Shown here piece after piece: positions 10,723-60,216 of a DNA stretch of 64,000 bases (its first letter is position 1; the number at the start of each line of letters is the position of its first letter). Below the pieces are notes generated by a model. The model made no database searches, was not told the origin of the DNA, and saw only the letters and a list, made by a program, of their open reading frames with translations. This DNA comes from Nitrosomonas sp. (GTDB lineage Bacteria; Pseudomonadota; Gammaproteobacteria; Burkholderiales; Nitrosomonadaceae), in assembly GCA_024281995.1 (NCBI GenBank), contig JAMWZW010000001.1, positions 248,001-312,000 on the forward strand. Direction: 5' to 3'. Both the position numbers and the translations under genes were made by a program.

Positions 10723-10807
10723 AGGTCTTGCCAAAGGTGGGATTACCCGGTTTGATAGAGGTGTGAATCTTTATCAACGAAGCGCGCAAGCGCAAAGGAG
10801 TAATCCC

Positions 10808-11851
10808 ATGAGTAGTATTCAACGAACTATCATCAAACACAAGATTGGTTTGCTTAATCTGGCAGCCGAGCTTGGCAATGTATCCCGAGCCTGCAAGGTG
10901 ATGGGTTTTTCACGCGATACTTTCTATCGCTATCAGGCTGCCGTGGAGGCAGGAGGCGTTGAGGCACTGATTGATGAGAACCGGCGTAAACCCAATATCA
11001 AGAATCGCGTAGAAGAAGCGACGGAAGCAGCGATCAAAGCTTTTGCGCTGGAGCAACCTGCGTTTGGTCAGGTTCGTGTTTCTAATGAACTACGCAAACG
11101 CGGAATCATTGTTTCTCCATCTGGCGTTCGTTCGGTGTGGCTGCGTCAGAATCTGGAGTCGTTCAAGAAGCGTTTGTCAGCCTTGGAGAAACATATCGCC
11201 GAGACCGGAGCAGTGCTGACCGAAGCGCAAGTGCAGGCCCTGGAGAAGAAACAAGAAGACGATGTTGCTCATGGCGAAATCGAGACGGCTCATCCAGGCT
11301 ATCTCGGCAGCCAAGACACATTTTACGTTGGCACCATCAAGGGCGTGGGTCGAATTTATCAGCAAACATTCGTCGATACTTATTCCAAGTGGGCTGCAGC
11401 GAAGTTGTATACCACCAAAACGCCGATCACAGCAGCTGATTTGCTTAATGACCGGGTGCTTCCGTTCTTTGTCGAACAAGGTATGGGAGTCATCCGTATC
11501 CTGACCGATCGCGGTACCGAATACTGCGGTAAGCCGGAGAGTCACGATTATCAGCTCTATCTGGCACTCAATGACATTGAGCATTCCAGAACGAAAGCCA
11601 ATCATCCACAAACAAATGGTATCTGCGAGCGTTTCCACAAAACCATCTTGCAGGAATTCTACCAAGTAGCATTCAGGCGTAAGATTTACCAATCGATCGA
11701 AGAGTTACAGCACGATCTGGATGACTGGATGGTGTATTACAACAACACACGTACTCACCAAGGAAAAATGTGTTGTGGGCGTACACCGATGCAAACTTTA
11801 ATTGACGCAAAGGGGGTGTGGGACGATAAAATTACCTCATTGAATAACTGA
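10808..11851 (+). CDS. IS481-family DDE transposase
   Basis: Transposase of 347 residues. An N-terminal helix-turn-helix region (NLAAELGNVSRACKVMGFSR) precedes an rve integrase core. The DDE triad is visible as Asp in FVDTYSKWAAAKLY, Asp in ILTDRGTEYCG and Glu in HPQTNGICERFHKTI. The ATG at 10808 is preferred over an in-frame codon 45 bases upstream because aaaggag stands just before it and IS481 proteins start with this segment. The frame is intact, so the element may still be active. Confidence 0.93.
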   Translation: MSSIQRTIIKHKIGLLNLAAELGNVSRACKVMGFSRDTFYRYQAAVEAGGVEALIDENRRKPNIKNRVEEATEAAIKAFALEQPAFGQVRVSNELRKRGIIVSPSGVRSVWLRQNLESFKKRLSALEKHIAETGAVLTEAQVQALEKKQEDDVAHGEIETAHPGYLGSQDTFYVGTIKGVGRIYQQTFVDTYSKWAAAKLYTTKTPITAADLLNDRVLPFFVEQGMGVIRILTDRGTEYCGKPESHDYQLYLALNDIEHSRTKANHPQTNGICERFHKTILQEFYQVAFRRKIYQSIEELQHDLDDWMVYYNNTRTHQGKMCCGRTPMQTLIDAKGVWDDKITSLNN

Positions 11852-14201: not shown

Positions 14202-16019
14202 TTGAGTTCGACAATAACCAAGTTGAACGCTCCGCTAACGCAAGCGTTTGATTTTCAGCCTTCAAGCGAATTACAATTTACACCGACTTTCAATACACTA
14301 ACTCAGCGGTTAGCGGACTTTGATACCCTGACCAGCGCTTTAGAATATGCAGCAGATGGAATAACGGGGTATAACTTTTACGACGCGAAGGGAAATTTAC
14401 GTTCGGTTTTGCCTTACAGTGAGCTTAGAGATAATGCTCGCACTTTGGCCCAACGCCTATATAGTTTTGATTTGCCCAGAGGAAGTCGAGTGGCAATTAT
14501 TGCTGACACTTCTGCAGAATTTGTCGAATTGTTCTTTGCTTGTCGTTATGCTGGTTTGGTACCTTTTGCGATGCCGATTCCAGTTAATTTAGGTAGTCAT
14601 GCGATTTATGTTCAACAGCTAAAAGGCATGCTTGAGAGCAGTCAAGCCAGTATTGCGTTAGCAAATATTGATTATATTAATTTTCTGCAAGAAGCTGTAG
14701 AAAGAGTTGAAAGTATACGATGGGTGGGAACGCCAGGTAAATTAAGCGAGTTGCCTGCGGTTCGTTTGGAGTTGCAATCCAATCATCCTGATGAAATTGC
14801 TTACTTGCAGTTTACTTCGGGTAGTACGCGTACGCCGAGAGGGGTGGTTATTACTGAACGAGCCTTAATGTGCAATTTGCAGGGTATTGTTCGTAATGGC
14901 TTGGAAATAAGACCGGGTGATCGCTCTGCATCATGGTTGCCTTTTTATCATGATATGGGATTGGTTGGTTTGGTCTTGGCGCCAATGGTTACGCAACTTT
15001 CAGTAGATTATCTGGCAACTAGAGATTTTGCAATTCGGCCTTTGCAATGGCTTCGTTTAATTAGCCGTAACCGATGCACTGTAGCATTCAGCCAACCTTT
15101 TGGTCTTAAGCTTTGTACTTTACGTGCAAGAGAAACTGATCTAAAGGAGTTGGATCTTAGTTGTTGGAGGGCTGCTGGTATTGGTGCAGAAATGATTCGA
15201 CCTGAAACTTTGAGAAACTTTGCAGAAAAATTTGCATCAGCAGGTTTTGATGAGAGTGCTTTTTTACCATGTTATGGACTTGCGGAATCAACATTAGCGG
15301 TTACCTTTTCTAAAATTGGTACGGGGTGTAAAAGCATACAAGTAGATAGCAAGACTCTAATAGATAAGAAGATGGCTGCCAGATTACAGGCTGACGGGCG
15401 CAAACAAAATGAATTTGTAAACTGTGGGCGTCCGTTACCTGGACATACGGTTAAGATTGTTGATGAAGATGGAGAGCAGTTATCAGAAATGATGGTTGGT
15501 AGTGTTCTGGTACATGGTGATAGTTTAATGACTGGCTACTATAATAACCCTGAAGAGACTGATAGGGCGCTTAAATCCGGTAACTGGTTAGATACGGGAG
15601 ATATTGGATTTCTGTTGGGAGGTGATTTATTTATCACGGGACGCCGAACAGATGTCATCATTGTTAATGGACGTAATATCCGCGCGCAAGATATAGAAGA
15701 ATTAGCGGAACAACAACCTGAGGTTCGGTCTCGCGAAGCTTCAGCATTTGGCGTAGACAGTGAAGATGGAACAACAACCATTGTTCTAGTAATCGAATGC
15801 AGACTTACTTCTATGACAGAGAGGCAATCGTTAACAATTAGATTGCAGCAATTTGTTTATATGGCCTTTGGTGTTAATTGTGTTGTTGAATTAGTACCGC
15901 CGCATACTTTACCAAGAACTTCTTCTGGAAAACTTTCTCGGTTTGCTGCGAAGCAAGGATATATCCAAAGGACAAATCTTGCTGGGCAGCTATCTTTTGT
16001 AGAGTCAGGCGATAGATAA
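14202..16019 (+). CDS. Acyl-AMP ligase / acyl-ACP synthetase of a ceramide-type operon
   Basis: Adenylate-forming enzyme of 605 residues, in the fatty acyl-AMP ligase branch. It should activate a fatty acid with ATP and load it on the ACP encoded two genes downstream. Seen: P-loop LQFTSGSTRTPRG (~205), YGLAEST core, adenine/hinge region DIGFLLGGDLFITGRRTDVI and C-terminal LPRTSSGKLSR with the catalytic Lys. The start is TTG at 14202, backed by gagggga 6 bases upstream. It is the first of four tightly spaced genes matching the Caulobacter ceramide locus, where this position holds the acyl-ACP synthetase. Substrate chain length cannot be read. Confidence 0.83.
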   Translation: MSSTITKLNAPLTQAFDFQPSSELQFTPTFNTLTQRLADFDTLTSALEYAADGITGYNFYDAKGNLRSVLPYSELRDNARTLAQRLYSFDLPRGSRVAIIADTSAEFVELFFACRYAGLVPFAMPIPVNLGSHAIYVQQLKGMLESSQASIALANIDYINFLQEAVERVESIRWVGTPGKLSELPAVRLELQSNHPDEIAYLQFTSGSTRTPRGVVITERALMCNLQGIVRNGLEIRPGDRSASWLPFYHDMGLVGLVLAPMVTQLSVDYLATRDFAIRPLQWLRLISRNRCTVAFSQPFGLKLCTLRARETDLKELDLSCWRAAGIGAEMIRPETLRNFAEKFASAGFDESAFLPCYGLAESTLAVTFSKIGTGCKSIQVDSKTLIDKKMAARLQADGRKQNEFVNCGRPLPGHTVKIVDEDGEQLSEMMVGSVLVHGDSLMTGYYNNPEETDRALKSGNWLDTGDIGFLLGGDLFITGRRTDVIIVNGRNIRAQDIEELAEQQPEVRSREASAFGVDSEDGTTTIVLVIECRLTSMTERQSLTIRLQQFVYMAFGVNCVVELVPPHTLPRTSSGKLSRFAAKQGYIQRTNLAGQLSFVESGDR

Positions 16020-16026
16020 AAAGGAT

Positions 16027-16938
16027 ATGCCGGAATTAGTAGCTGTAACAGGCGCTACTGGTTTTATCGGTAAAGTGTTAGTACAAAAACTGATTCAAAG
16101 CGGCTGGAAGGTTCGTGCCCTTACTAGAAGTAAGGAATCATCATGTAGCGAATCAATTCAATGGATTCATGGCGATCTTGACAATACAGTTGCGCTACGT
16201 CATTTGGTTGATGGCGTAGCGTTTGTGGTTCATTGTGCTGCTACAGTAAGGGGTGATTCTTTCAGCAAATTTGAACATATCAATGTTGAAGGCACCAGAA
16301 ATCTTTTATACGCGATTACTGAACAAGATAAATGGCCTCGATTCCTTCTCATATCATCTTTAGCTGCAAGAAATCCTGAATTATCCTGGTACGCTGGAAG
16401 CAAGTATTTATGTGAGCAGCTACTTACTGGATATTCCGGTCTATTGTCGACAATTTTTCGCCCTACAGCGGTATATGGTCCCGGTGATAAGGAGTTAAAG
16501 CCGCTTTTTCAGGCAATGCAGCGCGGGGTGCTTCCTGTAATAGGAGGAATTCATAATCGATTTGGTTTGCTTCACGTTTATGATCTGGTTGCGGCTATTC
16601 AAGCTTGGCTGGCGTCAGATCAGTCTATCAACGGCATTTTTGAACTGGATGATGGCACACCGGGCGGATATAGCTATCAAGGTCTATCTGTTTTGGCTCA
16701 GCGAGTATGGAAACGCCCTGTTTACTGTATCACCATACCGAATTTTTTGATTCGAAGTATCGCGCTATCAAATCTCTGGCTTGCACGCCTATTACATTAC
16801 TCTCCCATGCTAACACCAGGAAAAGTTAATGAATTACAACATAGTGACTGGGTATGTAACAACGAACCTTTAACCAGTATACTTCCTACATGGCGACCGA
16901 ATATTCGTTTACAAGATGTATTATCTGAAGTAATCTAA
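16027..16938 (+). CDS. NAD(P)-dependent epimerase/reductase, CerR-like candidate
   Basis: Extended short-chain dehydrogenase of 303 residues. The Rossmann motif GATGFIG is at the N-terminus. A Ser preceding the active site (LLISSLAARNPELS) and the catalytic YxxxK (YAGSK) are present. It starts 7 bases after the acyl-AMP ligase stop. In Caulobacter the gene at this place (CerR) reduces the 3-keto group of the sphingoid intermediate; that role here is inferred from order alone. A general sugar epimerase function is less likely given the lipid neighbours, but the sequence does not exclude it. Confidence 0.72.
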   Translation: MPELVAVTGATGFIGKVLVQKLIQSGWKVRALTRSKESSCSESIQWIHGDLDNTVALRHLVDGVAFVVHCAATVRGDSFSKFEHINVEGTRNLLYAITEQDKWPRFLLISSLAARNPELSWYAGSKYLCEQLLTGYSGLLSTIFRPTAVYGPGDKELKPLFQAMQRGVLPVIGGIHNRFGLLHVYDLVAAIQAWLASDQSINGIFELDDGTPGGYSYQGLSVLAQRVWKRPVYCITIPNFLIRSIALSNLWLARLLHYSPMLTPGKVNELQHSDWVCNNEPLTSILPTWRPNIRLQDVLSEVI

Positions 16939-16968
16939 CTTTGAAATTTAATTACGATGAGTTAATTT

Positions 16969-17223
16969 ATGACCGAGAACAATTATAATGAGATCATGAA
17001 ATTACTCTGTGATCGTTTAGAAGGGGTATCGAATTCCAATGTTCAAATCACTTCCGAAACAAACATAATTAGCCAATTATCGATTGATTCCATTAAGTTA
17101 CTCAATCTGATTATGGAAATTGAAGACACTTTTGACATCTCAATTCCTATCAATGCATTAACCGATGTGCAAACTGTTCGTGAGCTAGCTGATTTAGTTT
17201 ATAAAATTAAGTCAGCATCATAA
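16969..17223 (+). CDS. Acyl carrier protein
   Basis: Small acidic four-helix carrier protein of 84 residues with the phosphopantetheine attachment Ser in SQLSIDSIKLLNLIMEIED (a DSI variant of the common DSL motif). It is distinct from the housekeeping AcpP sequence. Only one base separates its stop from the ATG of the following synthase, so the pair is probably co-translated. It is expected to carry the acyl chain made available by the acyl-AMP ligase and hand it to the palmitoyltransferase-like enzyme. Confidence 0.9.
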   Translation: MTENNYNEIMKLLCDRLEGVSNSNVQITSETNIISQLSIDSIKLLNLIMEIEDTFDISIPINALTDVQTVRELADLVYKIKSAS

Positions 17224-17224
17224 A

Positions 17225-18418
17225 ATGAATTTACTTGAAAAATTAGACGCGTCTGCTGCGGCAAGAAAAGCGCTTTTGCCCGATGGTGTCGGAGCTTTCG
17301 GTATTCCGATCGAAGAGGTTTATTCGGCTACTGAAGCTCGGATTGGGGATCGGCGTGTTCTGCTGCTCGGCACTAACAATTATTTAGGGTTGACTTTTGC
17401 ACCTGAGTGCATCCGAGCAGCGCATGAAGCAATCGATAAAGAAGGTACGGGTACAACAGGATCTCGGATGGCAAATGGTAGTTATTTTGGTCATCGCTCA
17501 CTAGAGAGAGAATTTGCAGATTTTTATCAATGTGATTCTGCGATTGTCTTTACTACGGGTTATCAAGCAAATTTGGGCACCATTTCTGGTCTCGTTGGTC
17601 CTGGGGATACTGTCTTGATTGATGGTGACTCTCATGCCAGCATATACGATGGCTGTGTTTTAAGTGGTGCAGATATCATTCGCTTCAAGCATAATGATAT
17701 GGTTGATATGGAAAAACGGTTGCGCCGCTTGGGTAATCGTGTTGAAACAACGTTGATAATTGCTGAAGGGATTTACAGTATGCTCGGCGATCAAGCGCCT
17801 TTGGATGATATTGTTAAACTAAAGAATGCTTACGGCTGTATTTTACTCCTCGATGAAGCGCATTCGTTGGGCGTGCTGGGTGAAACTGGCCAGGGTCTTG
17901 TGGAAGCAACCGGATTATTGAAAGAAGTCGACTTTATTACGGGCACTTTTAGTAAAAGCTTATGCAGTATTGGCGGCTATTGTGTAAGTAATCACCCTCA
18001 GCTTGAGCAATTACGCTATGTCAGCCATCCTTATATTTTTACAGCATCGCCATCTCCAGCAACGATTGCTTCGACGCGTGCGGCATTAGAGTTATTGCGT
18101 AAAGGTAGCCATTTGCGCAAACAATTGTGGCAAAACTGCACACAGCTTTATACACAGCTAAGGGAAGGAGGATATTTACTTGGCCCTCATCCTGGACCGG
18201 TAATTGCTGCAATAGTTGACACGCCGCGCCAAGCACTCTTACTTTGGCAGAATTTGCTGGAGCATAATATTTACGTGAATTTAATATTGCCTCCAGCTGC
18301 ACCGGAGGGCAAATCACTCGTGCGATGCAGTGTAAATGCAGCGCATACTTCTGAACAAATTAAGTATGTAGGCGATACTTTTTGTAAGTTGCATGGACTA
18401 GTATGTTCACCAAGTTAA
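17225..18418 (+). CDS. spt: Serine palmitoyltransferase-like alpha-oxoamine synthase
   Basis: PLP enzyme of 397 residues that joins an amino acid to an acyl thioester with loss of CO2. The PLP Lys244 lies in TFSKSLCSIGGY, the cofactor Asp210 and His213 in LLLDEAHSLGV, and a substrate His137 in DGDSHASI. N-terminal NNYLGL and GTGTTGSRMANGS are typical of the family (KBL, BioF, HemA, SPT). The ACP and acyl-AMP ligase next door point to SPT, which would give 3-ketosphinganine. A BioF or KBL role is unlikely because no biotin or threonine genes are near. It is the last gene of the four-gene unit. Confidence 0.82.
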   Translation: MNLLEKLDASAAARKALLPDGVGAFGIPIEEVYSATEARIGDRRVLLLGTNNYLGLTFAPECIRAAHEAIDKEGTGTTGSRMANGSYFGHRSLEREFADFYQCDSAIVFTTGYQANLGTISGLVGPGDTVLIDGDSHASIYDGCVLSGADIIRFKHNDMVDMEKRLRRLGNRVETTLIIAEGIYSMLGDQAPLDDIVKLKNAYGCILLLDEAHSLGVLGETGQGLVEATGLLKEVDFITGTFSKSLCSIGGYCVSNHPQLEQLRYVSHPYIFTASPSPATIASTRAALELLRKGSHLRKQLWQNCTQLYTQLREGGYLLGPHPGPVIAAIVDTPRQALLLWQNLLEHNIYVNLILPPAAPEGKSLVRCSVNAAHTSEQIKYVGDTFCKLHGLVCSPS

Positions 18419-18533: not shown

Positions 18534-19187
18534 ATGAAAGTAATGCAAGTATTGGTGGTAACTATATTTCTTTTTCTATTTCATGGTAGTTCTTATGGGA
18601 TAGCCATTGTGTACAATGGGTTTCAATGCCTCAATGCGATAAATGCAAATGACACCACTGTTAGCAATACTCCAGTACAAAGTAGATTTGAAGTTATTGA
18701 AGATGTTGGGGAGGGAATGTTTCGCTTAAATTTGACAGGGGGTATTCCTCGCATTGTCAATAATAATCAGAACGTTTGTATTGATAATGCAACCGCTTTA
18801 GGTTATTCAGGAATCCCTGAAGTCGATGGACTGCCAGCACCGCTTCAATCAATCGATGCGACAGCATATTTTAGTGGAAGAAATCTGGTGATTGTGATCA
18901 ATTCATTATTTACCGATCTAAGCGCCAGAAGAGACTCTTTCGCCTCATTTTTTAGTACAAGTAATATATTTGCAATTACCAATACGCTGTTTTTTGAATT
19001 TAATTCGCTAACATCTTCATTCCGCTTAAATAAGTTAATCCATAACAGAGGGTATACGCAAACAACCAGTGGTTCTACCAACTTTATTCCGTTTCTGGAA
19101 ACAGTCCTCCCATCTTTTAACGATATACCGCGAGATAAAACCCGAATCCTGACCCCAATTTCCAGTATTGACTATGTATTGGAATAG
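18534..19187 (+). CDS. Exported protein of unknown function
   Basis: 217 residues with a clear signal peptide (hydrophobic stretch ~5-22, MQVLVVTIFLFLFHGSSYG) and probably cleaved near the Gly/Ile that follows. The mature part is rich in Asn, Ser, Thr and Phe, has only two Cys, and reads like a secreted or outer-membrane beta-rich protein. No family was recognised. It follows the sphingolipid-type operon after 115 bases on the same strand and has its own AT-rich leader, so co-function is possible but not shown. Confidence 0.6.
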   Translation: MKVMQVLVVTIFLFLFHGSSYGIAIVYNGFQCLNAINANDTTVSNTPVQSRFEVIEDVGEGMFRLNLTGGIPRIVNNNQNVCIDNATALGYSGIPEVDGLPAPLQSIDATAYFSGRNLVIVINSLFTDLSARRDSFASFFSTSNIFAITNTLFFEFNSLTSSFRLNKLIHNRGYTQTTSGSTNFIPFLETVLPSFNDIPRDKTRILTPISSIDYVLE

Positions 19188-21531: not shown

Positions 21532-22647
21532 ATGGGAGTTCCTTTACGTCAACAGATTGCGGTTGGCAGTTATTTAATTAAACAGAAAATAAAGGGAGTA
21601 AAAAAATACCCCTTAGTACTAATGCTGGAACCTTTGTTTCGCTGTAATCTTGCTTGTGCAGGATGTGGAAAAATTGCGCATCCGGAAGATGTTCTCGATC
21701 AACGTCTTTCTTATGAAGAGTGTATGCAAGCAGTAGACGAATGCGGTGCGCCGATGGTATCAATTCCAGGTGGTGAGCCACTGTTACATAAAGAGATGCC
21801 ACAGATTGTTGCGGGTATTATTAAACGCAAGAAATATGTTTATCTGTGTACAAATGCATTATTGTTAAAAAAAAGGATTAATGACTATACACCATCACCG
21901 TATTTGACATTCTCAATCCATTTGGATGGTATGAAAGAACGTCACGATGCTTCCGTTTGTCAGGATGGTGTATTTGATCGTGCGGTAGAAGCGATAAAGC
22001 TGGCTTTAGATAAGGGTTTTAGAGTTACTGTAAACTGTACATTATTTCAGGGCGAAACGCCCAAAGATGTAGCTGAATTCTTGGATTATGCAATGGAATT
22101 GGGCGTTGAAGCAGCAACGATTGCTCCGGGTTTTAGTTATGAGAAGGCGCCTCAACAAGATGTTTTTATCAAAAGTCAAGATACCAAGGTATTATTTCGC
22201 GGCATTTTTGAACTAGGCAAAAAACTGAAACGGAAATGGAGATTGAATCACTCAGCCCTTTATTTAGACTATTTAGCAGGAAATCAGGATTACAATTGTA
22301 CTCCATGGGGAAATCCGACTCGCAATGTATTTGGGTGGCAGAAACCGTGTTATTTACTATCCGATGAAGGTTACGCAAAGACATTTAAAGAGCTGCTTGA
22401 TGATACGCCTTGGGAAAAATATGGAACTGCAAATAATCCAAAATGTGCTCAGTGCATGGCACATTGTGGTTATGAGGCAACAGCTGTTGAAGATACACTG
22501 CAGCATCCATGGAAAGCGTTGATTACATCATTAAAAGGCCCTAGAACTTCAGGTCCTATGGTAGCTGAGCCTACTCCAAAGTGGGTGACCGAAGAAAACA
22601 AAACACCAAAGAAACTGGATATACCGGTAACAGTGATTAATAAATAA
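21532..22647 (+). CDS. hpnH: Hopanoid biosynthesis radical SAM protein HpnH
   Basis: HpnH joins 5'-deoxyadenosine to diploptene to make adenosylhopane, the first step of hopanoid side-chain extension. The 371 residues carry the radical SAM cluster motif CNLACAGC (Cys38, 42, 45) and SIPGGEPLLH, plus a Cys-containing C-terminal segment (NPKCAQCMAHCGYEATAV) typical of HpnH. Length is normal. It heads a hpnH-hpnB-hpnM unit. Squalene-hopene cyclase is not in the window. Confidence 0.95.
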   Translation: MGVPLRQQIAVGSYLIKQKIKGVKKYPLVLMLEPLFRCNLACAGCGKIAHPEDVLDQRLSYEECMQAVDECGAPMVSIPGGEPLLHKEMPQIVAGIIKRKKYVYLCTNALLLKKRINDYTPSPYLTFSIHLDGMKERHDASVCQDGVFDRAVEAIKLALDKGFRVTVNCTLFQGETPKDVAEFLDYAMELGVEAATIAPGFSYEKAPQQDVFIKSQDTKVLFRGIFELGKKLKRKWRLNHSALYLDYLAGNQDYNCTPWGNPTRNVFGWQKPCYLLSDEGYAKTFKELLDDTPWEKYGTANNPKCAQCMAHCGYEATAVEDTLQHPWKALITSLKGPRTSGPMVAEPTPKWVTEENKTPKKLDIPVTVINK

Positions 22648-22688
22648 AATAATTAGCAATTTGTTTTTATTAGCTATTTAAGCTAGAG

Positions 22689-23822
22689 ATGATAACGGAA
22701 TTGGTATTATATCTGTCAATTCTTGGAGTTTTGTGCTGGTGGGCATTGATACTACTTCCATGGCATCCTTGTCGCATACGTGAAAAATTAGAAGTTGGAA
22801 TTCCAGAAAATACTAAAGCGCTGTTAAGTGATATCACAGTATTGATCCCGGCACGTAATGAAGGTCCTTATATTCGACACACAATAAACAGTGTGAAAGC
22901 GCAAGGAAAAGGTTCCTGTATTATCGTGATTGATGATCAATCACAAGATAATACAGCACAACAGGCGAAGTTGTGTGGTGTAAGAGTCATATCGGGTATT
23001 GCACCTTTGCCAGGCTGGAGTGGAAAGTTATGGGCCCTGCAACAAGGATTGCAAGAAGTTAGAACACCTTATACGCTTTTGTTGGATGCAGATATTATTC
23101 TGACTCCCGGAATTATTTGTGAAATAAGACAAAAGGCAGAGGTGGAGAATTTTGCGCTGATATCGTTAATGGCTGAGCCACCTATGAAAAATTTCGTAGA
23201 GCGTTTATTAATGCCTGCATTTATTTTTTTCTTTAAATTGTTGTATCCATTTGGACTTGCAAATAAACCAACATCACGTGTTGCGGCAGCTGCCGGAGGC
23301 TGTGTCCTAGTGGAAACGCAAGCGTTACGAACAATAGGTGCTTTTGATAGCTTGCATGATGCATTAATTGATGATTGCACTTTAGCGACACACATTAAAC
23401 GCACTGGTTTACGCACGTGGATTGGATTGAGCCATGCGGCACGAAGTCATCGTGGGTATCATGATTTGAGGCAGATTTGGGAAATGGTGGCTCGTACTGC
23501 CTATACTCAGTTAAAGTATTCGGTTGTCTTGCTTGTCGCTTGCACATTGATCATGGTATCCATGTTTTGGGCGGCACCGTTGTTTTTTTTATTGCAACCA
23601 AGCCCGGAAATTTTCTGGGTAAGCTTATCGGCATGGATAGCAATGTTTATTTCTTACATGCCAACTTTAATTTATTATAAACGCTCTCCGCTTTGGATAT
23701 TTGCATTACCTATAATTGGCACATTGTATCTGGCAATGACCTGGGCATCAGCGTTGCGGTATTGGGGAGGTGAGCGTGCTTGTTGGAAAGATCGTCACTA
23801 TGAAAGTAAAACTAACAATTAA
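22689..23822 (+). CDS. hpnB: Hopanoid-associated glycosyltransferase HpnB
   Basis: Family 2 glycosyltransferase of 377 residues. An N-terminal membrane helix (~3-23) precedes a GT-A domain with ITVLIPARNEGPYI, the metal-binding LLLDADIIL and the acceptor-site DDCTLATHIKRTG. Several C-terminal membrane helices follow (~275-360). This architecture and order after hpnH fit HpnB, which is widespread in hopanoid clusters but whose exact product is not firmly known. The 3' end overlaps the following gene by 23 bases. Confidence 0.9.
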   Translation: MITELVLYLSILGVLCWWALILLPWHPCRIREKLEVGIPENTKALLSDITVLIPARNEGPYIRHTINSVKAQGKGSCIIVIDDQSQDNTAQQAKLCGVRVISGIAPLPGWSGKLWALQQGLQEVRTPYTLLLDADIILTPGIICEIRQKAEVENFALISLMAEPPMKNFVERLLMPAFIFFFKLLYPFGLANKPTSRVAAAAGGCVLVETQALRTIGAFDSLHDALIDDCTLATHIKRTGLRTWIGLSHAARSHRGYHDLRQIWEMVARTAYTQLKYSVVLLVACTLIMVSMFWAAPLFFLLQPSPEIFWVSLSAWIAMFISYMPTLIYYKRSPLWIFALPIIGTLYLAMTWASALRYWGGERACWKDRHYESKTNN

Positions 23823-24432
23823 ATTAATGACGTGGTGGCTAGTTGGGCTAATATTGTCATTCACCAATATTGCCTTCAGCGCATCCAATTCAGTGACTGA
23901 GAGCCCTGAACAAGTCATCCAGGAGTTACAATCTTCCTTACTTCAAGTAATGCGTGACGGCCAAAAATTAGGGTATGAAGGGCGATTTAAATTCCTTGAA
24001 CCCGTAATTGATCAATCTCATGACATCGAGATGATTATCAAAACGATACTTGGCGCAACTTACTGGTCTCAATTGGATAGTGGGCAAAAAAAACTGATTA
24101 TTGATACTTTTCGCCAGTTGAGTATTGCCACTTACGCGGGGAGATTCACTCATCATGAGGGAGAGCAATTCGAAGTTATTGAGCAGCGCGATTTACCGCA
24201 TGGGCAAATGCTGGTGCGCAGTCAATTAACCAAGTCTGATGGTGGTACAGTAAATTTCGATTATGTTCTACAGCAGACAGAAGATCGTTGGCGTATTGTG
24301 AATATTTTATTTGATGGTGTGAGTGACCTTGCAATCAAGCGGGGTGAGTACCGTGCAATTATGCAGCGAGAAGGATTTCAGGCGCTGATTGAATTGCTTA
24401 AGGAAAAAATTATTCAGGCCAAACAAAATTAA
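23800..24432 (+). CDS. hpnM: Hopanoid-associated MlaC-family protein HpnM
   Basis: Periplasmic lipid-binding protein of the MlaC/Ttg2D family; HpnM is thought to take part in moving hopanoids to the outer membrane. There are 210 residues with a signal peptide (~8-30). The MlaC pattern is seen in PVIDQSHDIEMIIKTILGATYW and in DYVLQQTEDRWRIVNILFDGVS, followed by LAIKRGEY. The ATG at 23800 is preferred: it gives a proper signal peptide and has ggaaag upstream, although a GTG at 23770 is in frame. It overlaps hpnB and is convergent with rsmB, 18 bases away. Confidence 0.88.
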   Translation: MKVKLTIKLMTWWLVGLILSFTNIAFSASNSVTESPEQVIQELQSSLLQVMRDGQKLGYEGRFKFLEPVIDQSHDIEMIIKTILGATYWSQLDSGQKKLIIDTFRQLSIATYAGRFTHHEGEQFEVIEQRDLPHGQMLVRSQLTKSDGGTVNFDYVLQQTEDRWRIVNILFDGVSDLAIKRGEYRAIMQREGFQALIELLKEKIIQAKQN

Positions 24433-37344: not shown

Positions 37345-40300
37345 ATGGCTATTACGGTTGATTTAGGTAGTGCAGGCGTTGGCTACACAGAAAATGAGGG
37401 TGATTTAACGCTTTTTGCCGCAGCTACTTTTGTTTCCAGCGATGATAGTTTCGTAGACATTATTGAGATCACGCTCAACAATGCGCTTCCAGTAGAGGCT
37501 CTTTCGGTTTCTTCTTTACCAGCCGGTTATATATCCTCGTATGATTCGGTTACGGGTGTGCTGACCATTAGCAGTGGCACGGGCGATATATCGGATGCCA
37601 ACTGGGAATCAGCGCTCCGTTCAGTGCAATATAACAATTCGTCCGATAATCCGCCTGGAGCTCGGGAAATAACGGTCATCGCATCGGATACGGTTGGGCC
37701 GGCGACATCGGCCAGCACACTTGCAAATTATACTATTGCAATAACATCTTCCAATGATGCTCCGGTAATTACCGGTGATCTCGCTGCCGCAATTACCGAG
37801 GCGGGCAATTATGTAATTACGGTAGCAGACCTCGAGGAGGCCGATCCGGATGACGGTGGTGTGGAATTGACTTATACGGTGACATCACAAACCAATGGTA
37901 CCGTAAAGCTTGAAGGTTTGGATGTTCTGACATTCACTGCTCAGGACGTAATCGATGGCAAGGTCAGTTTTACGCATGATAGCTCCGAAACGCTGAATGC
38001 TGGTTTTGAATTCTCATTAGCCGATGGCGGAGAAGACGCTGTTTTACCGGAAACGGGTACATTCAGTTTTGCCGTGACACCGGTCAACGATCCGCCCAGT
38101 GGCGCGGTAACGATAGATGGAACAGCGCAAGAAAATGCCACACTCACCGCGAACACCAGCACCATTGGGGACAATGACGGACTGGGCACATTCAGCTACC
38201 AATGGCTGCGCGACAATGTTGCGATAAGCGGCGCAACCGGAGAAACTTACGGTCTAAGCGCAACCGATATTGGCAAGCAAATCAGTGTTACGGTGAGTTA
38301 CACCGACGGCCAGGGCACACCTGAGAGCCTGACCAGCGATGCGACGGCTATTGTCACCAATGTCAACGATCCGCCCAGTGGCGCGGTAACGATAGACGGG
38401 CAAGCGCAAGAAAACGCCACACTCACCGCGAACACCAGCACTATCGTAGACAATGACGAATTGGGTGCATTCAGCTACCAATGGTTGCGCGACAATGTTG
38501 CGATAAGCGGCGCAACCGGAGAAACTTACGTTCTGAATGCGGCTGACATTGGCAAGCAAATCACTGTTACGGTAAGTTACACCGACGGCCAGGGCACACC
38601 TGAGAGCCTGACCAGCAATGCGACGGCTATTGTCACCAACGTCAACGACCCGCCCACAGGCGCGGTAACGATAGACGGGCAAGTGCAAGAAAACGCCACA
38701 CTCACGGCGAACACCAGCACCATTGCGGATAATGACGAATTGGGCACATTCAGCTACCAATGGTTGCGCGACAATGTTGCGATAAGTGGCGCAACCGGAG
38801 AAACTTACGTTCTAAGCGCAACCGATATTGGCAAGCAAATCACTGTTACGGTAAGTTATACCGACGGCCAGGGCACACCTGAGAGCTTGACCAGCGATGC
38901 GACGGCTATTGTCACCAACGTCAACGACCCACCCAGTGGCGCGGTAACGATAGACGGGCAAGCGCAAGAAAATGCTACACTCACCGCGAACACCAGCACC
39001 ATTGCGGATAACGACGGATTGGGCACATTCAGCTACCAATGGCTGCGCGATAACGTTGCGATAAGCGGTGCAACCGGAGAAACTTACGCTTTAAGCGCAA
39101 CCGACATTGGCAAGCAAATCAGTGTTACGGTGAGTTACACCGACGGCCAGGGCACACCTGAGAGCCTGACCAGCGATGCGACGGCTATTGTCACCAACGT
39201 CAACGACCCGCCCACAGGCGCGGTAACGATAGATGGAACAGCGCAAGAAAATGCCACACTCACCGCGAACACCAGCACCATTGGGGACAATGACGGACTG
39301 GGCACATTCAGCTACCAATGGCTGCGCGATAATGTTGCGATAAGCGGCGCAACCGGAGAAACTTACGTTCTGAATGCGGCTGACATTGGCAAGCAAATCA
39401 CTGTTACGGTAAGTTACACCGACGGCCAGGGCACACCTGAGAGCCTGACCAGCGATGCGACGGCTATTGTCACCAACGTCAACGACCCGCCCACAGGCGC
39501 GGTAACGATAGACGGGCAAGCGCAAGAAAATGCCACACTCACCGCGAACACCAGCACCATTGCGGATAATGACGAATTGGGTGCATTCAGCTACCAATGG
39601 CTGCGCGACAATGTTGCGATAAGCGGCGCAACCGGAGAAACTTATGTTCTGAATGCGGCTGACATTGGCAAGCAAATCACTGTTACGGTAAGTTACACCG
39701 ACGGTCAAGGCACACCTGAGAGCTTGACCAGTGACCCCACTGCGATTGTGGCAGGAGAAAATCAAGCACCGATGCTATTAGCACCATTAGCTGATCAAGC
39801 GGTGCAATATGATACGGTTAATTGGAGTTACAATACCAGTGCATCTTTTAGCGATGAAGATTCTTTGACTTATAGCGCTACGCTCGTGGGTGGTGCGGCT
39901 TTGCCCGCCTGGATTCAAATCAATGCAACAACTGGAATAATAACGGGAACGCCTAATTTTAGTAATTATGGGATTTACGCACTGGAAATAACTGCAACCG
40001 ATACTCACGGACTTTTTATTGCTGACACGCTAACGCTCGCAGTTACTGCGTTTGATGCGGGTCAGTTGCTGGTTAATACCAGTGCAAATGACGTTTTTGC
40101 TGGAACGGGAGCAAATGATACTGTCACCTACGCGTATGCGGCAGCTCCTATCACGGTCTCCTTAGCGCTGACAGGCTCACAAAATACGGGTGGCGCAGGA
40201 TCAGATATATTGAATAACATCAATAACTTGATCGGTAGTAATTACAGCGATAATTTGACAGGAGATTCACAGAATAACGTATTGGATGGTGGCATTGGTA

Positions 40301-41652
40301 CTGATACTTTAGTAGGTGGACTGGGCAATGATAGTTATATTGTCAACCTTACAGGCGATATCGTCACTGAAAAATTTAATGCAGGTATCGATACAGTCAA
40401 GAGTAGTGTGACCTACGCCTTACCAGGTCAGGTTGAGAATCTTACTTTAATGGGCACAGCGAATATTAATGGCAATGGCAATGCTTTAGCTAACGTGATC
40501 ATTGGAAATGTAGCAAACAACACATTGAATGGCGGTGTTGGCGCAGATACTGCAATGGGGGGATTAGGTAATGACATTTATTTTGTTGATAATACAAACG
40601 ATATCGTTAACGAAAATTTGAATGAGGGCATCGATAAAATTAGTAGTAGCGTCACTTATACGTTGCCTGACAATGTTGAAGATCTTACGCTAACTGCAAC
40701 AGCAGCCATCAACGGCATAGGCAATGATCTGGTAAATATTTTATTAGGTAACTCAGCAGCGAATGTACTGAATGGAGGTATTGGTGCAGATACTCTGAGA
40801 GGCGGAACGGGTGACGATACTTATGTTGTTGATAATGTTGGTGACATCGTTACTGAAAATCTTAATGCCGGTATCGATACGGTTAACAGTAACATAACCT
40901 ATACCCTGAAAAGCAATATCGAGCATTTGATACTATCGGGTACTGCAGCCATTAATGGTACGGGTAATGTTTTGGCCAACACAATCACTGGAAATGCAGC
41001 AGCGAATTTGCTCAATGGCGCAACGGGAGCAGATACGCTTATTGGCGGGTTGGGTGATGATATATATACGATTGATAATGCGGGTGACATTATTGTTGAA
41101 AATCTCAATGAAGGTATTGATAGAGTCAATAGTAGTGTGAGTTATATGTTATCAGATAATGTGGAAAATATTACCTTGATAGGGAGCTCTGCGATTAATG
41201 CTACGGGCAACGGAATAGCTAATACTATAGTAGGAAATTCCGCATCAAATCAGTTAATTGGAGGGGCTGGGGATGATATTCTCAATGGCGCGGCGGGTAA
41301 TAATACGTTAACAGGCGGTACGGGTAAGGATTATTTTCAATTTAAAACGGCGGATCATATTACAGGTGGCCGAATTGATACAATTACCGACTATAACGCA
41401 TTCGATGACACCATTAAGCTGGAGAATAGTATATTTACGGCGTTTTCCGCCATGATTACTCCCGATAAAATACCTGCCGATCAATTTGTAATTGGTACGC
41501 AGGCGTTGGATGCGAATGATTTCATCATCTATAATAATGCTACGGGTGCGGTACTCTATGATGCTGATGGTAATGGTGCTGGAGCTGCGGTGCAATTTGC
41601 TACACTGAGTACCGGATTGGCATTGACCAACTGGGATTTTCACGCGATTTAG
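37345..41652 (+). CDS. Large RTX-type adhesin with tandem repeats
   Basis: 1435 residues, without an N-terminal Sec signal, which fits type I secretion by a C-terminal signal. Order: cadherin-like part (~1-250), six nearly identical 93-residue Ig-like repeats (~253-810), a dystroglycan-type cadherin domain (~811-910), then hemolysin-type calcium-binding blocks with GGxGxD nonapeptides (for example LVGGLGNDSYIV, LRGGTGDDTYVV) and a short secretion tail with ATLSTGLALTNWDFHAI. It probably acts in attachment or biofilm formation. No type I secretion genes lie nearby. It is monocistronic and ends at a strong hairpin. Confidence 0.85.
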   Translation: MAITVDLGSAGVGYTENEGDLTLFAAATFVSSDDSFVDIIEITLNNALPVEALSVSSLPAGYISSYDSVTGVLTISSGTGDISDANWESALRSVQYNNSSDNPPGAREITVIASDTVGPATSASTLANYTIAITSSNDAPVITGDLAAAITEAGNYVITVADLEEADPDDGGVELTYTVTSQTNGTVKLEGLDVLTFTAQDVIDGKVSFTHDSSETLNAGFEFSLADGGEDAVLPETGTFSFAVTPVNDPPSGAVTIDGTAQENATLTANTSTIGDNDGLGTFSYQWLRDNVAISGATGETYGLSATDIGKQISVTVSYTDGQGTPESLTSDATAIVTNVNDPPSGAVTIDGQAQENATLTANTSTIVDNDELGAFSYQWLRDNVAISGATGETYVLNAADIGKQITVTVSYTDGQGTPESLTSNATAIVTNVNDPPTGAVTIDGQVQENATLTANTSTIADNDELGTFSYQWLRDNVAISGATGETYVLSATDIGKQITVTVSYTDGQGTPESLTSDATAIVTNVNDPPSGAVTIDGQAQENATLTANTSTIADNDGLGTFSYQWLRDNVAISGATGETYALSATDIGKQISVTVSYTDGQGTPESLTSDATAIVTNVNDPPTGAVTIDGTAQENATLTANTSTIGDNDGLGTFSYQWLRDNVAISGATGETYVLNAADIGKQITVTVSYTDGQGTPESLTSDATAIVTNVNDPPTGAVTIDGQAQENATLTANTSTIADNDELGAFSYQWLRDNVAISGATGETYVLNAADIGKQITVTVSYTDGQGTPESLTSDPTAIVAGENQAPMLLAPLADQAVQYDTVNWSYNTSASFSDEDSLTYSATLVGGAALPAWIQINATTGIITGTPNFSNYGIYALEITATDTHGLFIADTLTLAVTAFDAGQLLVNTSANDVFAGTGANDTVTYAYAAAPITVSLALTGSQNTGGAGSDILNNINNLIGSNYSDNLTGDSQNNVLDGGIGTDTLVGGLGNDSYIVNLTGDIVTEKFNAGIDTVKSSVTYALPGQVENLTLMGTANINGNGNALANVIIGNVANNTLNGGVGADTAMGGLGNDIYFVDNTNDIVNENLNEGIDKISSSVTYTLPDNVEDLTLTATAAINGIGNDLVNILLGNSAANVLNGGIGADTLRGGTGDDTYVVDNVGDIVTENLNAGIDTVNSNITYTLKSNIEHLILSGTAAINGTGNVLANTITGNAAANLLNGATGADTLIGGLGDDIYTIDNAGDIIVENLNEGIDRVNSSVSYMLSDNVENITLIGSSAINATGNGIANTIVGNSASNQLIGGAGDDILNGAAGNNTLTGGTGKDYFQFKTADHITGGRIDTITDYNAFDDTIKLENSIFTAFSAMITPDKIPADQFVIGTQALDANDFIIYNNATGAVLYDADGNGAGAAVQFATLSTGLALTNWDFHAI
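38101..39774 (+). repeat. Six direct tandem repeats of 279 bp inside the adhesin gene
   Basis: Unit starts are at 38101, 38380, 38659, 38938, 39217 and 39496, an exact 279-bp period (93 codons). Each unit encodes GAVTIDG, then NATLTANTST, FSYQWLRDN and TVSYTDGQGTPESLTS. The DNA copies differ at few sites (for example GQ against GT, GLG against ELG), so the array expanded or was homogenised recently. Confidence 0.97.
40282..41253 (+). repeat. Four diverged 243-bp repeats in the calcium-binding part of the adhesin
   Basis: Units begin at 40282, 40525, 40768 and 41011, a period of 243 bp (81 codons). Each carries LNGGxGADTxxGGxGDD nonapeptides, IVTENLNxGIDxVxSSVTY and NVExLTLxGxAAINGxGN blocks. 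They are more diverged than the 279-bp array, so they are older. Confidence 0.92.
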
Positions 41653-52043: not shown

Positions 52044-52733
52044 TTATAGCACATTTGCTTCAAAAACCGTAACCACCGATTGAGTGCGTTGCAATAACCA
52101 AACAATCGGCAATCCCGGATCAGGATTATTACTCAGCCGGTCTAACAATTGCCGCTTACCTTCACCGGTAACAACCAGTGCAATGTGTGCACTTTCTGCC
52201 AGTATTGCCAACGACAGGCTAACCCGCAGCGACGGTGCGATCGGTGGGCCAACGGCAACGCAGTGATGAACCGAGCGTAAATCTGGATTCATCCCCGGAA
52301 ACAGTGAAGCGATATGACCATCTTCTCCCAGACCCAAGATCGTCAGGCTTAATGGTAGCGACAAGCGATCCAGGCGCTGGTGGATTTCATCAATGGCGTC
52401 GGATGGGCTGTCATGCTGGGTTTTGAGTCCGACGAAACGCGTATTTGAAGGGAGGTGATTCATCAGGTATTTTTTTACCAAGCGTTCGTTCGATTGTTCA
52501 TCCGTGACATCGACCCAGCGCTCATCCGATAGGGTGATCGTGATGCGATCCCAAGGCAATTGGCATTTTGACAGTGCGGGCAGGTAATGGCGTGGCGTAT
52601 TGCCGCCGGGGACGATCAGTGTGGCTTGAGGTTTTCGGGTTAGTGTGTTTTGCAGTGCGTTTTCAACATACTTCGCAAGGCTTTGGCTGAGCTGCTCGAT
52701 ATTCGCGAAATAGTGTCGCTGCATTGAGACCAT
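52044..52733 (-). CDS. pgl: 6-phosphogluconolactonase
   Basis: 229-residue DevB/Pgl-type lactonase of the pentose phosphate pathway. Motifs: TLIVPGGNTPRHYLPALS at the N-terminus, ITLSDERWVDVTDEQSNERLV, and SLTILGLGEDGHIASLFPG with the active His. zwf and edd are not in the window. It follows the HAD gene of the neighbouring cluster by 7 bases on the same strand, which suggests co-transcription. Confidence 0.92.
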   Translation of the reverse strand: MVSMQRHYFANIEQLSQSLAKYVENALQNTLTRKPQATLIVPGGNTPRHYLPALSKCQLPWDRITITLSDERWVDVTDEQSNERLVKKYLMNHLPSNTRFVGLKTQHDSPSDAIDEIHQRLDRLSLPLSLTILGLGEDGHIASLFPGMNPDLRSVHHCVAVGPPIAPSLRVSLSLAILAESAHIALVVTGEGKRQLLDRLSNNPDPGLPIVWLLQRTQSVVTVFEANVL

Positions 52734-52740
52734 TTTGCGT

Positions 52741-53382
52741 TTAAGCGACTAACTCACGTAAATCCGGTACGATTTTTATATGTGCTGGGAAAGGATTCGG
52801 GTCATTGGGGTGGACGCGGCCCAGAAAATCGGTGTTATTGGCTTGCGCACCCTCGTAATCCGCCATCGCATCGCCGATCATCAGCACTGTTTCGGGCTTG
52901 AGCGCATAAGTGGATAAAATTTCCGCGATTATGGTTTGTTTAAGCGCCGGCGCGCCGCGTACTTCTTTAAAGTATGGCGTCAGGCCGCGGCGTTCGACAA
53001 TAACTTTCAGCTCATTTTCAGGTGTGCCGGAGGCTACGAATAACGGAATTTTTCCGGCTTGCTGGCGAATGAGCTCCATTGCGCCGGGTACGGCATCAGC
53101 GGCGATAACGGCTTCAACCACTAGCTCGGAAAAACGACGGTCTAATTCTTTTTCTTCCGCTTCAGTCAGCGGCGGTTTATGGAGAAAATACTGTTGGAAA
53201 TGACGGAATTTGCGGTAGCGCGACATGCCGCCGTTTTGAGTATGAAATTGCACTACTTTTGCGGCAATTTCCTCGCTGTGGGTGCGATAGAGTTCCGCGA
53301 ATGCCTGGGTTTTAATTTTGCCGGATTCCACCACTACACCGTCAAAATCAAAAATAATGGCCTGCCAGTCAAAGTTTTTCAT
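52741..53382 (-). CDS. HAD-superfamily hydrolase (beta-PGM-like)
   Basis: 213 residues. Motif I AIIFDFDGVVVESG with nucleophile Asp, motif II LFVASGTPENEL, motif III Lys in VRGAPALKQTI and motif IV VLMIGDAMADYEGA. A helical cap lies between motifs I and II. It probably removes phosphate from a sugar-type intermediate; within this cluster it could play the KdsC-like role. The gap to the epimerase is 8 bases. Confidence 0.85.
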   Translation of the reverse strand: MKNFDWQAIIFDFDGVVVESGKIKTQAFAELYRTHSEEIAAKVVQFHTQNGGMSRYRKFRHFQQYFLHKPPLTEAEEKELDRRFSELVVEAVIAADAVPGAMELIRQQAGKIPLFVASGTPENELKVIVERRGLTPYFKEVRGAPALKQTIIAEILSTYALKPETVLMIGDAMADYEGAQANNTDFLGRVHPNDPNPFPAHIKIVPDLRELVA

Positions 53383-53390
53383 GACGAGTG

Positions 53391-54335
53391 TTATGCGCGA
53401 TTATCCGACGTGGCTGGGGTGGCATCGTCATTTTCATCGGCATGATGAAGATTCTGGTGGATTTCCCGTAAGCAGTCGAGCAGACCTTGTCCCAGATCGA
53501 CATGTTCATTCAGCACCAGCTTGCGGCCAATACGCGGTTGAAATGCATAGGGAGTAATTTCGTAGTGATGTATCGCATTGGCTTCGTCGAAACGCAATTC
53601 CACGGGCCATGGTAACATTTCCGAGATCATCGTCATGACATCTTTGATGCGCATTTTTTCCTGGCCTGTCAGAATTAAGTGGCGATTGGCAAACTCGGAT
53701 GCGAGTATTTGCACACTCATTCGCGCAGCATCTTCCACATGGATATACTCGCGCATGGCTTCGCCGCTGCCTTTGTAGGTGATGGAATGATGCGCGACGG
53801 CTTCGTTCAGCATGCGATATATACCGTTGCGTGTGTCGGAACGTCGGCCGTACAGTGAGCCATAGCGCAGGATGGTGTAATTCAATCCGTAGCGTTCGTG
53901 ATAAGTTTCGGTAAAGCGTTCCGCAGCTTGCTTGCTGGCACGATAAAACGATCCGGATTCGGAGTAGACATAAACGCTGCTGGCAAACACAAAGCGGCGC
54001 GCACCGGTGATACGGGCGGCTTCGAGCACATGCATGTTGCCCAATACGTTAATGGTCGCAGTCGGTATCGGTTTGTCGTGCGCTTCGTCGATATCGGCAA
54101 TGGCGGCAAAGTTGTAGACGATGGATGCATCTTTGGCGGCCTCGATAACTTGATCAAGGTTCATGATATCGCCTACGATCATTTCCTGGTTGCTTTTGAG
54201 GTACGGTGATGGGCTGCGATCGAATAGCCGCACCCGGTATCCTGCAGCGGATAATGCGTCGGCAACATGGCTACCTAGAAAACCGCTGGCGCCAAATACA
54301 ATTACTTTTTCGTTAGCGATTGTTTGATCAATCAT
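53391..54335 (-). CDS. NAD-dependent sugar epimerase/dehydratase
   Basis: 314-residue extended SDR. Rossmann motif VIVFGASGFLGSHVADAL, active-site Ser region FVFASSVYVYSESG and YxxxK in YRASKQAAERF. C-terminal LRYGSLYGRRSDTRNG binds nucleotide-sugar in relatives. It overlaps the dehydrogenase gene by 4 bases, so they are coupled. Which NDP-sugar it uses is not evident. Confidence 0.87.
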   Translation of the reverse strand: MIDQTIANEKVIVFGASGFLGSHVADALSAAGYRVRLFDRSPSPYLKSNQEMIVGDIMNLDQVIEAAKDASIVYNFAAIADIDEAHDKPIPTATINVLGNMHVLEAARITGARRFVFASSVYVYSESGSFYRASKQAAERFTETYHERYGLNYTILRYGSLYGRRSDTRNGIYRMLNEAVAHHSITYKGSGEAMREYIHVEDAARMSVQILASEFANRHLILTGQEKMRIKDVMTMISEMLPWPVELRFDEANAIHHYEITPYAFQPRIGRKLVLNEHVDLGQGLLDCLREIHQNLHHADENDDATPATSDNRA

Positions 54336-55264
54336 TTGAGGAGACCTGTTTTGATTAAGCCTTGCAGCAAATTTTCCGCCGCTTCAATTTCCATGCGCTG
54401 ACGCGATTCCCGTGCGAGTGATCCGATATGCGAAGTCAGAATGGTATTGCCGCATTCGATTAACGGACCGTGATAAGGCTCTTGTTCGAACGTATCCAGT
54501 GCCGCGGCACTGATTTTTCCCAATTTTAATGTGTCGAGAAGCGCATCCTCATCCACCAGTCCACCGCGTGCCGCATTAATAACGATTGCTTCGGGTTTTA
54601 GGGTAGTCAAGGCTTTGGCATTTAGCAGATGATGCGTGTTCGCGGAATAGGGTAAATGCAGGCTGATGATATCGGCAGTGGCCAGCAAGGACTCTAAAGG
54701 CACTAATGTCACATCGGTTGGCACTTCATTGACATAGGGGTCGTGCGCGATGACAGTGGCTTCGAATGCTTGGCACAAGCGTGCCACGCGACGACCGATA
54801 TGTCCCAATCCTATAATGCCGACGGTTTGCGCGGCGAGTAGTCGGCCTTGCATACGCGGCCATTCACTGCTTCGCACAGCTTGATCGATGGGATTAATTT
54901 GCCGCAGCAGAGCTAGCATCAAGCCTATAGTAAGTTCTGCAACCGCCTGTGCCGGCGCTTCGGGCGTGTTCAGAACGGTAATGTCATGATTTTTGGCTGC
55001 AACCAGATCGACGCTGTCCAATCCGGTGCCACATCGCGAGATGACTTTTAAATGATTGGCAGATTCAAATACCCGCTCAGTCAGCGGTTCGATGCCGGCG
55101 ATCAATCCGACTGCGCCATCTTTCAGCAATGCGATGATTTCATCTTCGGTCAGTTTACGGCGGTGAGGGTTAGTAATGATTTTTAAGCCATTTTTCAGCA
55201 AATGCTGTAGTGGTGGATTGTTGTCGATATCGAATGAGGAAGTGGAGATAACCAGTGTGTTCAT
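54332..55264 (-). CDS. D-2-hydroxyacid dehydrogenase (phosphoglycerate dehydrogenase-like)
   Basis: 310 residues from ATG at 55264 (MNTLVISTSS); an upstream in-frame start lies inside the aldolase gene. NAD site VGIIGLGHIGRRVARL. Catalytic Arg in VISRCGTGLDSVDL, Glu in DTFEQEPYHG and His in LTSHIGSLARESRQ. It overlaps the aldolase stop as ATGA. In this cluster it may oxidise or reduce a 2-oxo/2-hydroxy sugar acid; a serine-pathway role is less likely because no C-terminal ACT domain is present. Confidence 0.85.
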   Translation of the reverse strand: MNTLVISTSSFDIDNNPPLQHLLKNGLKIITNPHRRKLTEDEIIALLKDGAVGLIAGIEPLTERVFESANHLKVISRCGTGLDSVDLVAAKNHDITVLNTPEAPAQAVAELTIGLMLALLRQINPIDQAVRSSEWPRMQGRLLAAQTVGIIGLGHIGRRVARLCQAFEATVIAHDPYVNEVPTDVTLVPLESLLATADIISLHLPYSANTHHLLNAKALTTLKPEAIVINAARGGLVDEDALLDTLKLGKISAAALDTFEQEPYHGPLIECGNTILTSHIGSLARESRQRMEIEAAENLLQGLIKTGLLK

Positions 55265-56031: not shown

Positions 56032-56041
56032 AACGCTATTC

Positions 56042-58353: not shown

Positions 58354-58405
58354 TTAAGCATTTACGGGTGGTTTTGCGTCAATGCCTTGCCCTTTGAGGT
58401 GATAG

Positions 58406-59170: not shown

Positions 59171-59188
59171 TCAAAGCATAGGGCTACG

Positions 59189-60208: not shown

Positions 60209-60216
60209 TAGATCCG

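Follow-up and report, generated by a model that had tools for sequence, protein, structure and literature searches.

A ceramide operon in Nitrosomonas suggests that sphingolipids stand in for lipopolysaccharide in a genus without detectable LpxC and LpxB

The adjacent genes aasR-cerR-acpR-spt of a Nitrosomonas sp. genome (assembly GCA_024281995.1) raise the question of which lipid this organism makes with them, and of what that lipid does in its outer membrane. The four genes lie on the + strand at positions 14202-18418 of the window, the whole stretch of 64,000 nucleotides that was analysed (contig JAMWZW010000001.1, positions 248,001 to 312,000). An earlier reading made from the letters alone, here called the sequence-only reading, had described a Caulobacter-like ceramide operon in a betaproteobacterium, making sphingoid bases or ceramide perhaps in place of or next to lipopolysaccharide (LPS). 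The host is indeed Nitrosomonas, the gene families and their order fit the description, and the guess about LPS is counted as right, replacement itself being suggested. On gene content, the capacity to make ceramide is near certain. It is likely, with a rough probability of 0.7, that the operon makes ceramide-based lipids that replace LPS in the outer leaflet and are exported by the Lpt bridge.

Open reading frame (ORF) coordinates and family scans bear out the four genes in the order first proposed, with intergenic gaps of 7, 30 and 1 bases. The first, aasR (14202..16019, + strand, 605 aa), encodes a predicted fatty acyl-AMP ligase/acyl-AcpR synthetase of the AMP-binding family, for which the best NCBIfam model is NF006624, ‘fatty acyl-AMP ligase’ (856 bits, cut-off 600). 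It starts at a TTG codon, a short way 5′ of which is a GAGGGGAAG stretch, and shares 48 % identity across 552 aa with the homologue at the same position in Escherichia coli BL21(DE3). Acyl-AcpR synthetase function has been published for the Caulobacter homologue (PMC9386255, in part; ‘in part’ marks here and below a source used in excerpts). The second gene, cerR (16027..16938, + strand, 303 aa; PF01370), encodes a short-chain dehydrogenase/NAD-dependent epimerase-type reductase with the motifs GATGFIG at residues 9-15 and YAGSK at 122-126; it is 44 % identical to the BL21 homologue, and its top two PDB matches are both NDUFA9 subunits of complex I. The specialised acyl carrier protein gene acpR (16969..17223, + strand, 84 aa; PF00550, PP-binding) is 41 % identical to the BL21 homologue over 59 aa and matches 15 NCBIfam models, each below its cut-off. 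Its Ser41 sits in IDSIKL and is presumably the active serine of the AcpR motif. The last gene, spt (17225..18418, + strand, 397 aa), encodes a predicted serine palmitoyltransferase (SPT), matching NF047599 ‘SerpalmtaseBetaP’ at 567 bits (cut-off 500) and BL21 spt at 53 % identity, with 2x8u ‘SERINE PALMITOYLTRANSFERASE’ as best PDB match (E 2.9e-117). The residues that we take to be functional are in place: K244 in GTFSK, H137, D210/H213 and R367. Between 13700 and 18700, predicted promoters and terminators were both at chance level (15 against 12.4 ± 2.9 and 3 against 3.7 ± 2.1, respectively).

The identity of the synthase matters for this assignment, as it belongs to the alpha-oxoamine synthase superfamily in common with BioF, KBL and CqsA. 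A synthase of one of these types, or one using another amino acid such as cysteate, would yield a different amino lipid or a signal, and the PDB matches of spt include 28eh, a ‘Cysteate-C-fatty acyltransferase’. Nevertheless, this is very improbable. The SPT model is above its cut-off, whereas the bioF (322 against 426 bits), glycine C-acetyltransferase (300 against 460) and CqsA-type (218 against 428) models are below theirs, the best PDB matches are SPT, and CerR and CerS are present as partners. In a tree of 33 rows, the window Spt falls inside the proteobacterial Spt clade (support 100/99), within a group of Nitrosomonadaceae that also contains Nitrosovibrio and one further genus of this family (100/100); E. 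coli BioF and KBL lie outside the Spt clade. The sequence-only reading had named clustering with KBL/BioF as what would refute it; a forced clade of the window Spt with E. coli BioF and KBL is rejected (approximately unbiased test, p = 2e-7).

The arrangement is conserved among relatives. Of 71 loci fetched, 69 are Nitrosomonadaceae-like (76-97 % identity), and two from Bacteroidota (L209 and L210; 35-36 %), with an Spt-like match only, were dropped before counting. The 69 include L166, titled Bacteroidetes, and L187, titled Moraxellaceae, which are probably mislabelled metagenome-assembled genomes. The nearest matching contigs are all from Nitrosomonas (RBC022, 97 %; Nm84, 93 %; Nm166, 92 %; N. 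oligotropha Nm75, 91 %). The complete order on one strand is found in 68 of the 69 loci, a conservation far beyond chance; in the exception, L166, the contig begins inside cerR and the remaining three genes are as expected. Strict motif patterns, applied to three frames of each locus, were found for Spt GTFSK in 68, its SH motif in 62, DEAH in 68 and its Arg motif in 67, for the acyl carrier protein Ser motif in 62, and for CerR GxTGFxG in 65 and WYAxSK in 63; L208, L185 and L166 are truncated where their contigs end. Spt above cut-off is present in 35 of 37 genomes of the genus. Across the order it was found in 11 of 300 sampled genomes and 3 of 134 genera (matches at E up to 1e-140), and across the phylum in 36 of 398 genomes and 26 of 212 genera (matches at E up to 1e-105); the distribution is patchy, though not rare.

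No ceramide synthase had been seen in the window by the sequence-only reading, which proposed a search of the genome for one. This fits, since the only CerS match of the source genome (G000; 2.88 Mb, 97.6 % complete) is on another contig, at G000:C15:65169-66281, where it was found with the BL21 YghO protein as query (49 % identity, E 4e-125). A route through PF04339 and PF13480, which we took to be ceramide synthase families, gave no match in this genome and was a false trail; neither BL21 YghO nor the Nitrosomonas CerS matched any Pfam family at E 0.001. YghO is listed as a homologue of CC_1154, the Caulobacter CerS (PMC9386255, in part). CerS is present in 23 of the 25 genus genomes searched, those without it being G003 and G019, and in none of 16 others.

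In the source genome, CerS heads a run on one strand that continues with a MobA-like nucleotidyltransferase, LptF, LptG, a TrkA-like protein (named by eye), TrkH, a CDP-alcohol phosphotransferase and a DAGK-type kinase. In a comparison of 21 CerS loci, all have CerS and LptF, although LptF is truncated in L229. LptG is present in 19, the contigs of L227 and L229 stopping before it, and the nucleotidyltransferase was likewise found in 19, L216 and L219 being the exceptions. Both the CDP-alcohol transferase and the kinase occur in 16; among the five loci lacking them, L227-L230 stop at a contig end and L213 has 4.2 kb more without either gene. The Trk genes occur in two of the loci (L060 and L221). 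Three headgroup-type domains are thus held in the CerS operon: DAGK_cat (CpgB-like), NTP_transf_3 (CpgD-like) and CDP-OH_P_transf. Relatives of these genes sit in other spt clusters, and they are candidate genes of a CPG/CPG2 phosphosphingolipid branch. The motifs DTVDGKLARVTVTSSRVGDVMDHGLD and GDGT, presumably those of the CDP-alcohol transferase and the kinase, are intact.

Beside the CerS operon on the same contig (L060:10909-19434) are three proteins that each have a Glu-rich N-terminus and share related stretches rich in Gly/Ala, together with proteins of 453 and 722 aa and an aminotransferase-fold protein of 376 aa that weakly matches the Spt model. The gene set of the Glu-rich proteins recurs in L217 and L229.

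A pathway can be proposed from these genes. AasR would charge AcpR with a fatty acid, and the AcpR-bound acyl group would be condensed with L-serine by Spt to give 3-ketosphinganine. CerR would then reduce the keto group and CerS would attach the second acyl chain, giving dihydroceramide, although the order of the CerS and CerR steps is disputed for Caulobacter (PMC11324152, in part). The kinase and a CDP-linked transfer of phosphoglycerate type would add an anionic headgroup, and LptB2FG, with the LptF and LptG of the CerS operon, would deliver the sphingolipid through LptD to the outer membrane. Because this operon holds the kinase, the CDP-alcohol phosphotransferase, the MobA-like nucleotidyltransferase and LptF/LptG, conversion of ceramide to an anionic phosphoglycerate-type sphingolipid and its export over an Lpt bridge with LptD at its end are probable. 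The biochemistry of these steps is taken from the cited Caulobacter work; the evidence here consists of genes, their order, absences and phylogeny, from which we infer the enzyme activities and the headgroup, cargo and leaflet of the ceramide lipid.

Whether such a lipid stands beside LPS or in its place was addressed by comparing the 37 genomes of the genus with 24 genomes of other families in the order. LpxC was found in none of the 37 and in all 24; LpxB above cut-off was likewise found in none of the 37, with one match below cut-off in G009, and in all 24. Both score above 290 bits in the other families, and the Caulobacter LpxC was detected as a control of the LpxC search. In N. europaea, lpxK was reported as the only one of nine genes for lipid A to be found, and in Nitrosospira multiformis only lpxA (Opiyo 2010, PMC3087551, in part). 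LptD, in contrast to these losses, is found in 36 of the 37, including the source genome, and in all 24; it is missing in G004 (75 % complete), a fragment in G019 and in pieces in G015. LptF/LptG were found in 35 of the 37 and all 24. The source genome has exactly two LptF/LptG matches, both adjoining CerS, and in 22 of 23 CerS-bearing genomes LptF/LptG lie within about 3 kb of CerS on the same contig (in G015 they are on different contigs). An additional LptF, adjoining a nucleotidyltransferase, is present in G020.

The descent of these permease proteins was followed in a quick tree of 102 LptF/LptG rows and in careful trees of hand-picked rows (28 of 50 LptF, 28 of 52 LptG, and 26 loci concatenated), from which matches shorter than 450 bases and ORFs of less than 250 aa or with stops were dropped; the rows of other families come from 19 of the 24 genomes. 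In the quick tree, Nitrosomonas contributes 21 LptF rows and 18 LptG rows. Each set groups with its counterparts from the BL21 spt cluster and the G442 spt/CerS locus, apart from the 19 LptF and 19 LptG of the order's other families. A single clade of Nitrosomonas with the order's ordinary LptF is rejected in the careful LptF tree (p 0.00015). The careful LptG tree gives a like grouping (99/97), and in the concatenated tree the Nitrosomonas, BL21 spt-cluster and G442 pairs group at 100/100, the ordinary clade being rejected (p 0.0002). Since the genus lacks LpxC and LpxB and appears to have lost the order's ordinary LptF/LptG, this sphingolipid is most likely a substitute for LPS in the outer leaflet, a replacement that the genes suggest.

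A diagnostic based on LptG Lys34 and its neighbours, which are LPS contacts, was tried on an 11-row alignment and rejected, as the five ordinary LptG rows of the order are also without Lys34.

An arrangement as in Caulobacter, in which sphingolipids stand beside a lipid A built by divergent or undetected enzymes, would account for the retention of LptD and for the lpxK of N. europaea (Opiyo 2010, in part). It would also explain a KdsB-type Kdo cytidylyltransferase (NF009905, 304 bits against 255) and a protein with a Wzy_C/O-antigen-ligase domain, both in the window. We consider it unlikely, given LpxC and LpxB above cut-off in no genus genome against every relative, the apparent loss of the order's ordinary LptF/LptG, and the finding of just lpxK out of nine such genes in N. 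europaea according to the same excerpts. The Kdo-type and Wzy_C genes fit a remaining LPS-like polymer. A bolder proposal is that the whole Lpt bridge has switched from LPS to ceramide-anchored lipids, perhaps bearing a Kdo-type sugar or O-antigen-like polymer and thus forming a ceramide-based LPS analogue; this is tentative, and on balance rather doubtful.

It is quite unlikely that the sphingolipid is minor or conditional, with an outer leaflet mostly of phospholipid and hopanoid and an Lpt bridge carrying another glycolipid. The hopanoid genes hpnH, hpnB and hpnM near spt (hpnH in 28 of the 69 loci) and the lack of the pathway in G003 and G019 would agree with it, but the Lpt permease genes lie within the CerS operon, as the sole pair in the source genome, and spt is kept in 35 of 37 genomes.

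Several observations weigh against replacement of LPS by an exported ceramide lipid. G003 (76 % complete) and G019 (91 % complete) are without Spt, CerS, LptF/LptG and LpxC, so that some genomes of the genus show no such replacement. The ordinary grouping is not rejected when LptG is tested by itself (p 0.069; 0.096 with the ordinary BL21 LptG added), and each of the three careful trees was flagged for long branches. The LptF/LptG of alphaproteobacterial-type spt clusters form separate groups, so that ‘sphingolipid-type’ LptFG are not a single clade, and it is the gene neighbourhood that gives them this label. The lipid A searches covered two enzymes, LpxC and LpxB, and the Kdo-type and Wzy_C genes named above count on the same side. 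The literature search found no lipidomics of Nitrosomonas sphingolipids. In the window CerR, the Rossmann motif begins at residue 9 and leaves no room for an export signal; the motif has a similar position in the BL21 CerR. Among six relatives, four have a stop codon within 10 codons upstream, and a longer start is possible in L155 and L200. The Caulobacter CerR has been reported as periplasmic, and a periplasmic CerR is not apparent from the sequence here.

As a side observation, the losses in G003 and G019, the latter with just a fragment of LptD, may be a concerted loss or assembly gaps.

The operon is a further member of a published type. In N. eutropha, Neut_0458-0461 are aasR, epi, acpR and spt, and Neut_1100 is the N-acyltransferase (PMC9386255, in part); N. 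eutropha C91 shares genus, gene set and order with the window operon, and its cerS is likewise placed separately (PMC9386255, PMC11324152, both in part). N. eutropha is reported to have orthologues of at least 13 of the 17 genes in the Caulobacter cluster, and CPG and CPG2 are expected there (PMC11324152, in part). In Caulobacter crescentus, CC_1165-1162 and CC_1154 are the five ceramide genes in common with Nitrosomonas, and the region holds a kinase, a cytidylyltransferase and a second LptF/LptG as does the Nitrosomonas CerS operon (PMC11324152, PMC12275187, both in part). That the second LptC/F/G carry phosphosphingolipids in Caulobacter is an untested suggestion of PMC11324152 (in part). 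Unlike Nitrosomonas, Caulobacter has LpxC and LPS; its CPG2 matters upon LPS depletion, and its viability without LPS is partly CPG2-dependent (PMC12275187, in part). The yghO-spt cluster of E. coli BL21(DE3) has the identical gene order, a divergent CerS homologue and adjoining LptF/LptG, but BL21, unlike the source genome, keeps a second, ordinary LptF/LptG, and none of the nine BL21 cluster proteins compared matches any of the three headgroup-type enzymes (kinase, nucleotidyltransferase, CDP-alcohol transferase) encoded with the Nitrosomonas CerS. Sphingomonas lacks LPS and has glycosphingolipids. Sorangium cellulosum is a further LPS-lacking sphingolipid bearer, known here from the title of a reference; both are of a different phylum or class from Nitrosomonas.

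The claim of the sequence-only reading that such a module lies outside the usual phyla is therefore not new: the operon is in print for N. eutropha, has an NCBI family (‘SerpalmtaseBetaP’) and also occurs in E. coli BL21. What appears to be novel is the genus context, with no LpxC or LpxB, LptD kept, and the source genome's sole LptF/LptG adjoining CerS. In 2010, lipid A gene loss was explained by genome reduction (PMC3087551, in part); ceramide replacement would offer a functional reason for that gene loss, and the word ‘sphingolipid’ occurs nowhere in that paper. ‘LPS’ and ‘lipopolysaccharide’ occur nowhere in the 2022 paper (PMC9386255), and the N. eutropha section of PMC11324152 makes no mention of missing lipid A genes. 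No paper was found that joins lipid A loss and sphingolipids in Nitrosomonas, the halves having been published separately, though the link may yet be in print. Other bacteria are known to have sphingolipids and no LPS; in Nitrosomonas, by comparison, the export bridge has been kept and is linked to the ceramide operon. A culturable genus of ammonia oxidisers with LptD and CerS-side LptF/LptG, without LpxC and LpxB, would be a natural clean test of sphingolipid transport by Lpt.

Other features of the window are of less certain relation to the operon. Downstream of spt, in part of the 69 loci, is a gene for a 217-aa protein with a hydrophobic N-terminus as judged by eye (18534..19187, + strand), which has no Pfam match at E 0.001 or 0.01 and no NCBIfam match at 0.001; its membership of the ceramide system is uncertain. 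The hopanoid genes (21532..24432, + strand; NCBIfam) are probably a separate lipid system. HpnH (552 bits, cut-off 225) and HpnM (219, cut-off 160) are above their cut-offs and HpnB (351) is below its 379. Within the fetched flanks hpnH is downstream, or upstream and inverted (for example L173-L181), so that hopanoid and sphingolipid genes are repeatedly close in differing arrangements.

The Kdo-type cytidylyltransferase (56042-56794, - strand) is part of a surface-polysaccharide-like cluster at 52044-61410, which also includes an HpcH/HpaI-type aldolase, a 2-hydroxyacid dehydrogenase, an epimerase-type protein, a glycosyltransferase, an FkbM methyltransferase and the Wzy_C protein. A 1435-aa repeat protein (37345-41652) contains a 279-base tandem unit in 5.9 copies with 92 % matches (38083-39731) and coincides with a local peak of GC and AT skew. 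An IS481-family transposase (10763-11851; NF033577, 284 bits against 224) lies 2.35 kb upstream of the operon, flanked by a fliE-like gene (by eye) and an ABC-F-like gene. In the seven loci showing both flanking genes (L140, L142, L143, L144, L156, L168 and L203) their matches are 18-91 bases apart, and the insertion therefore looks specific to the source genome.

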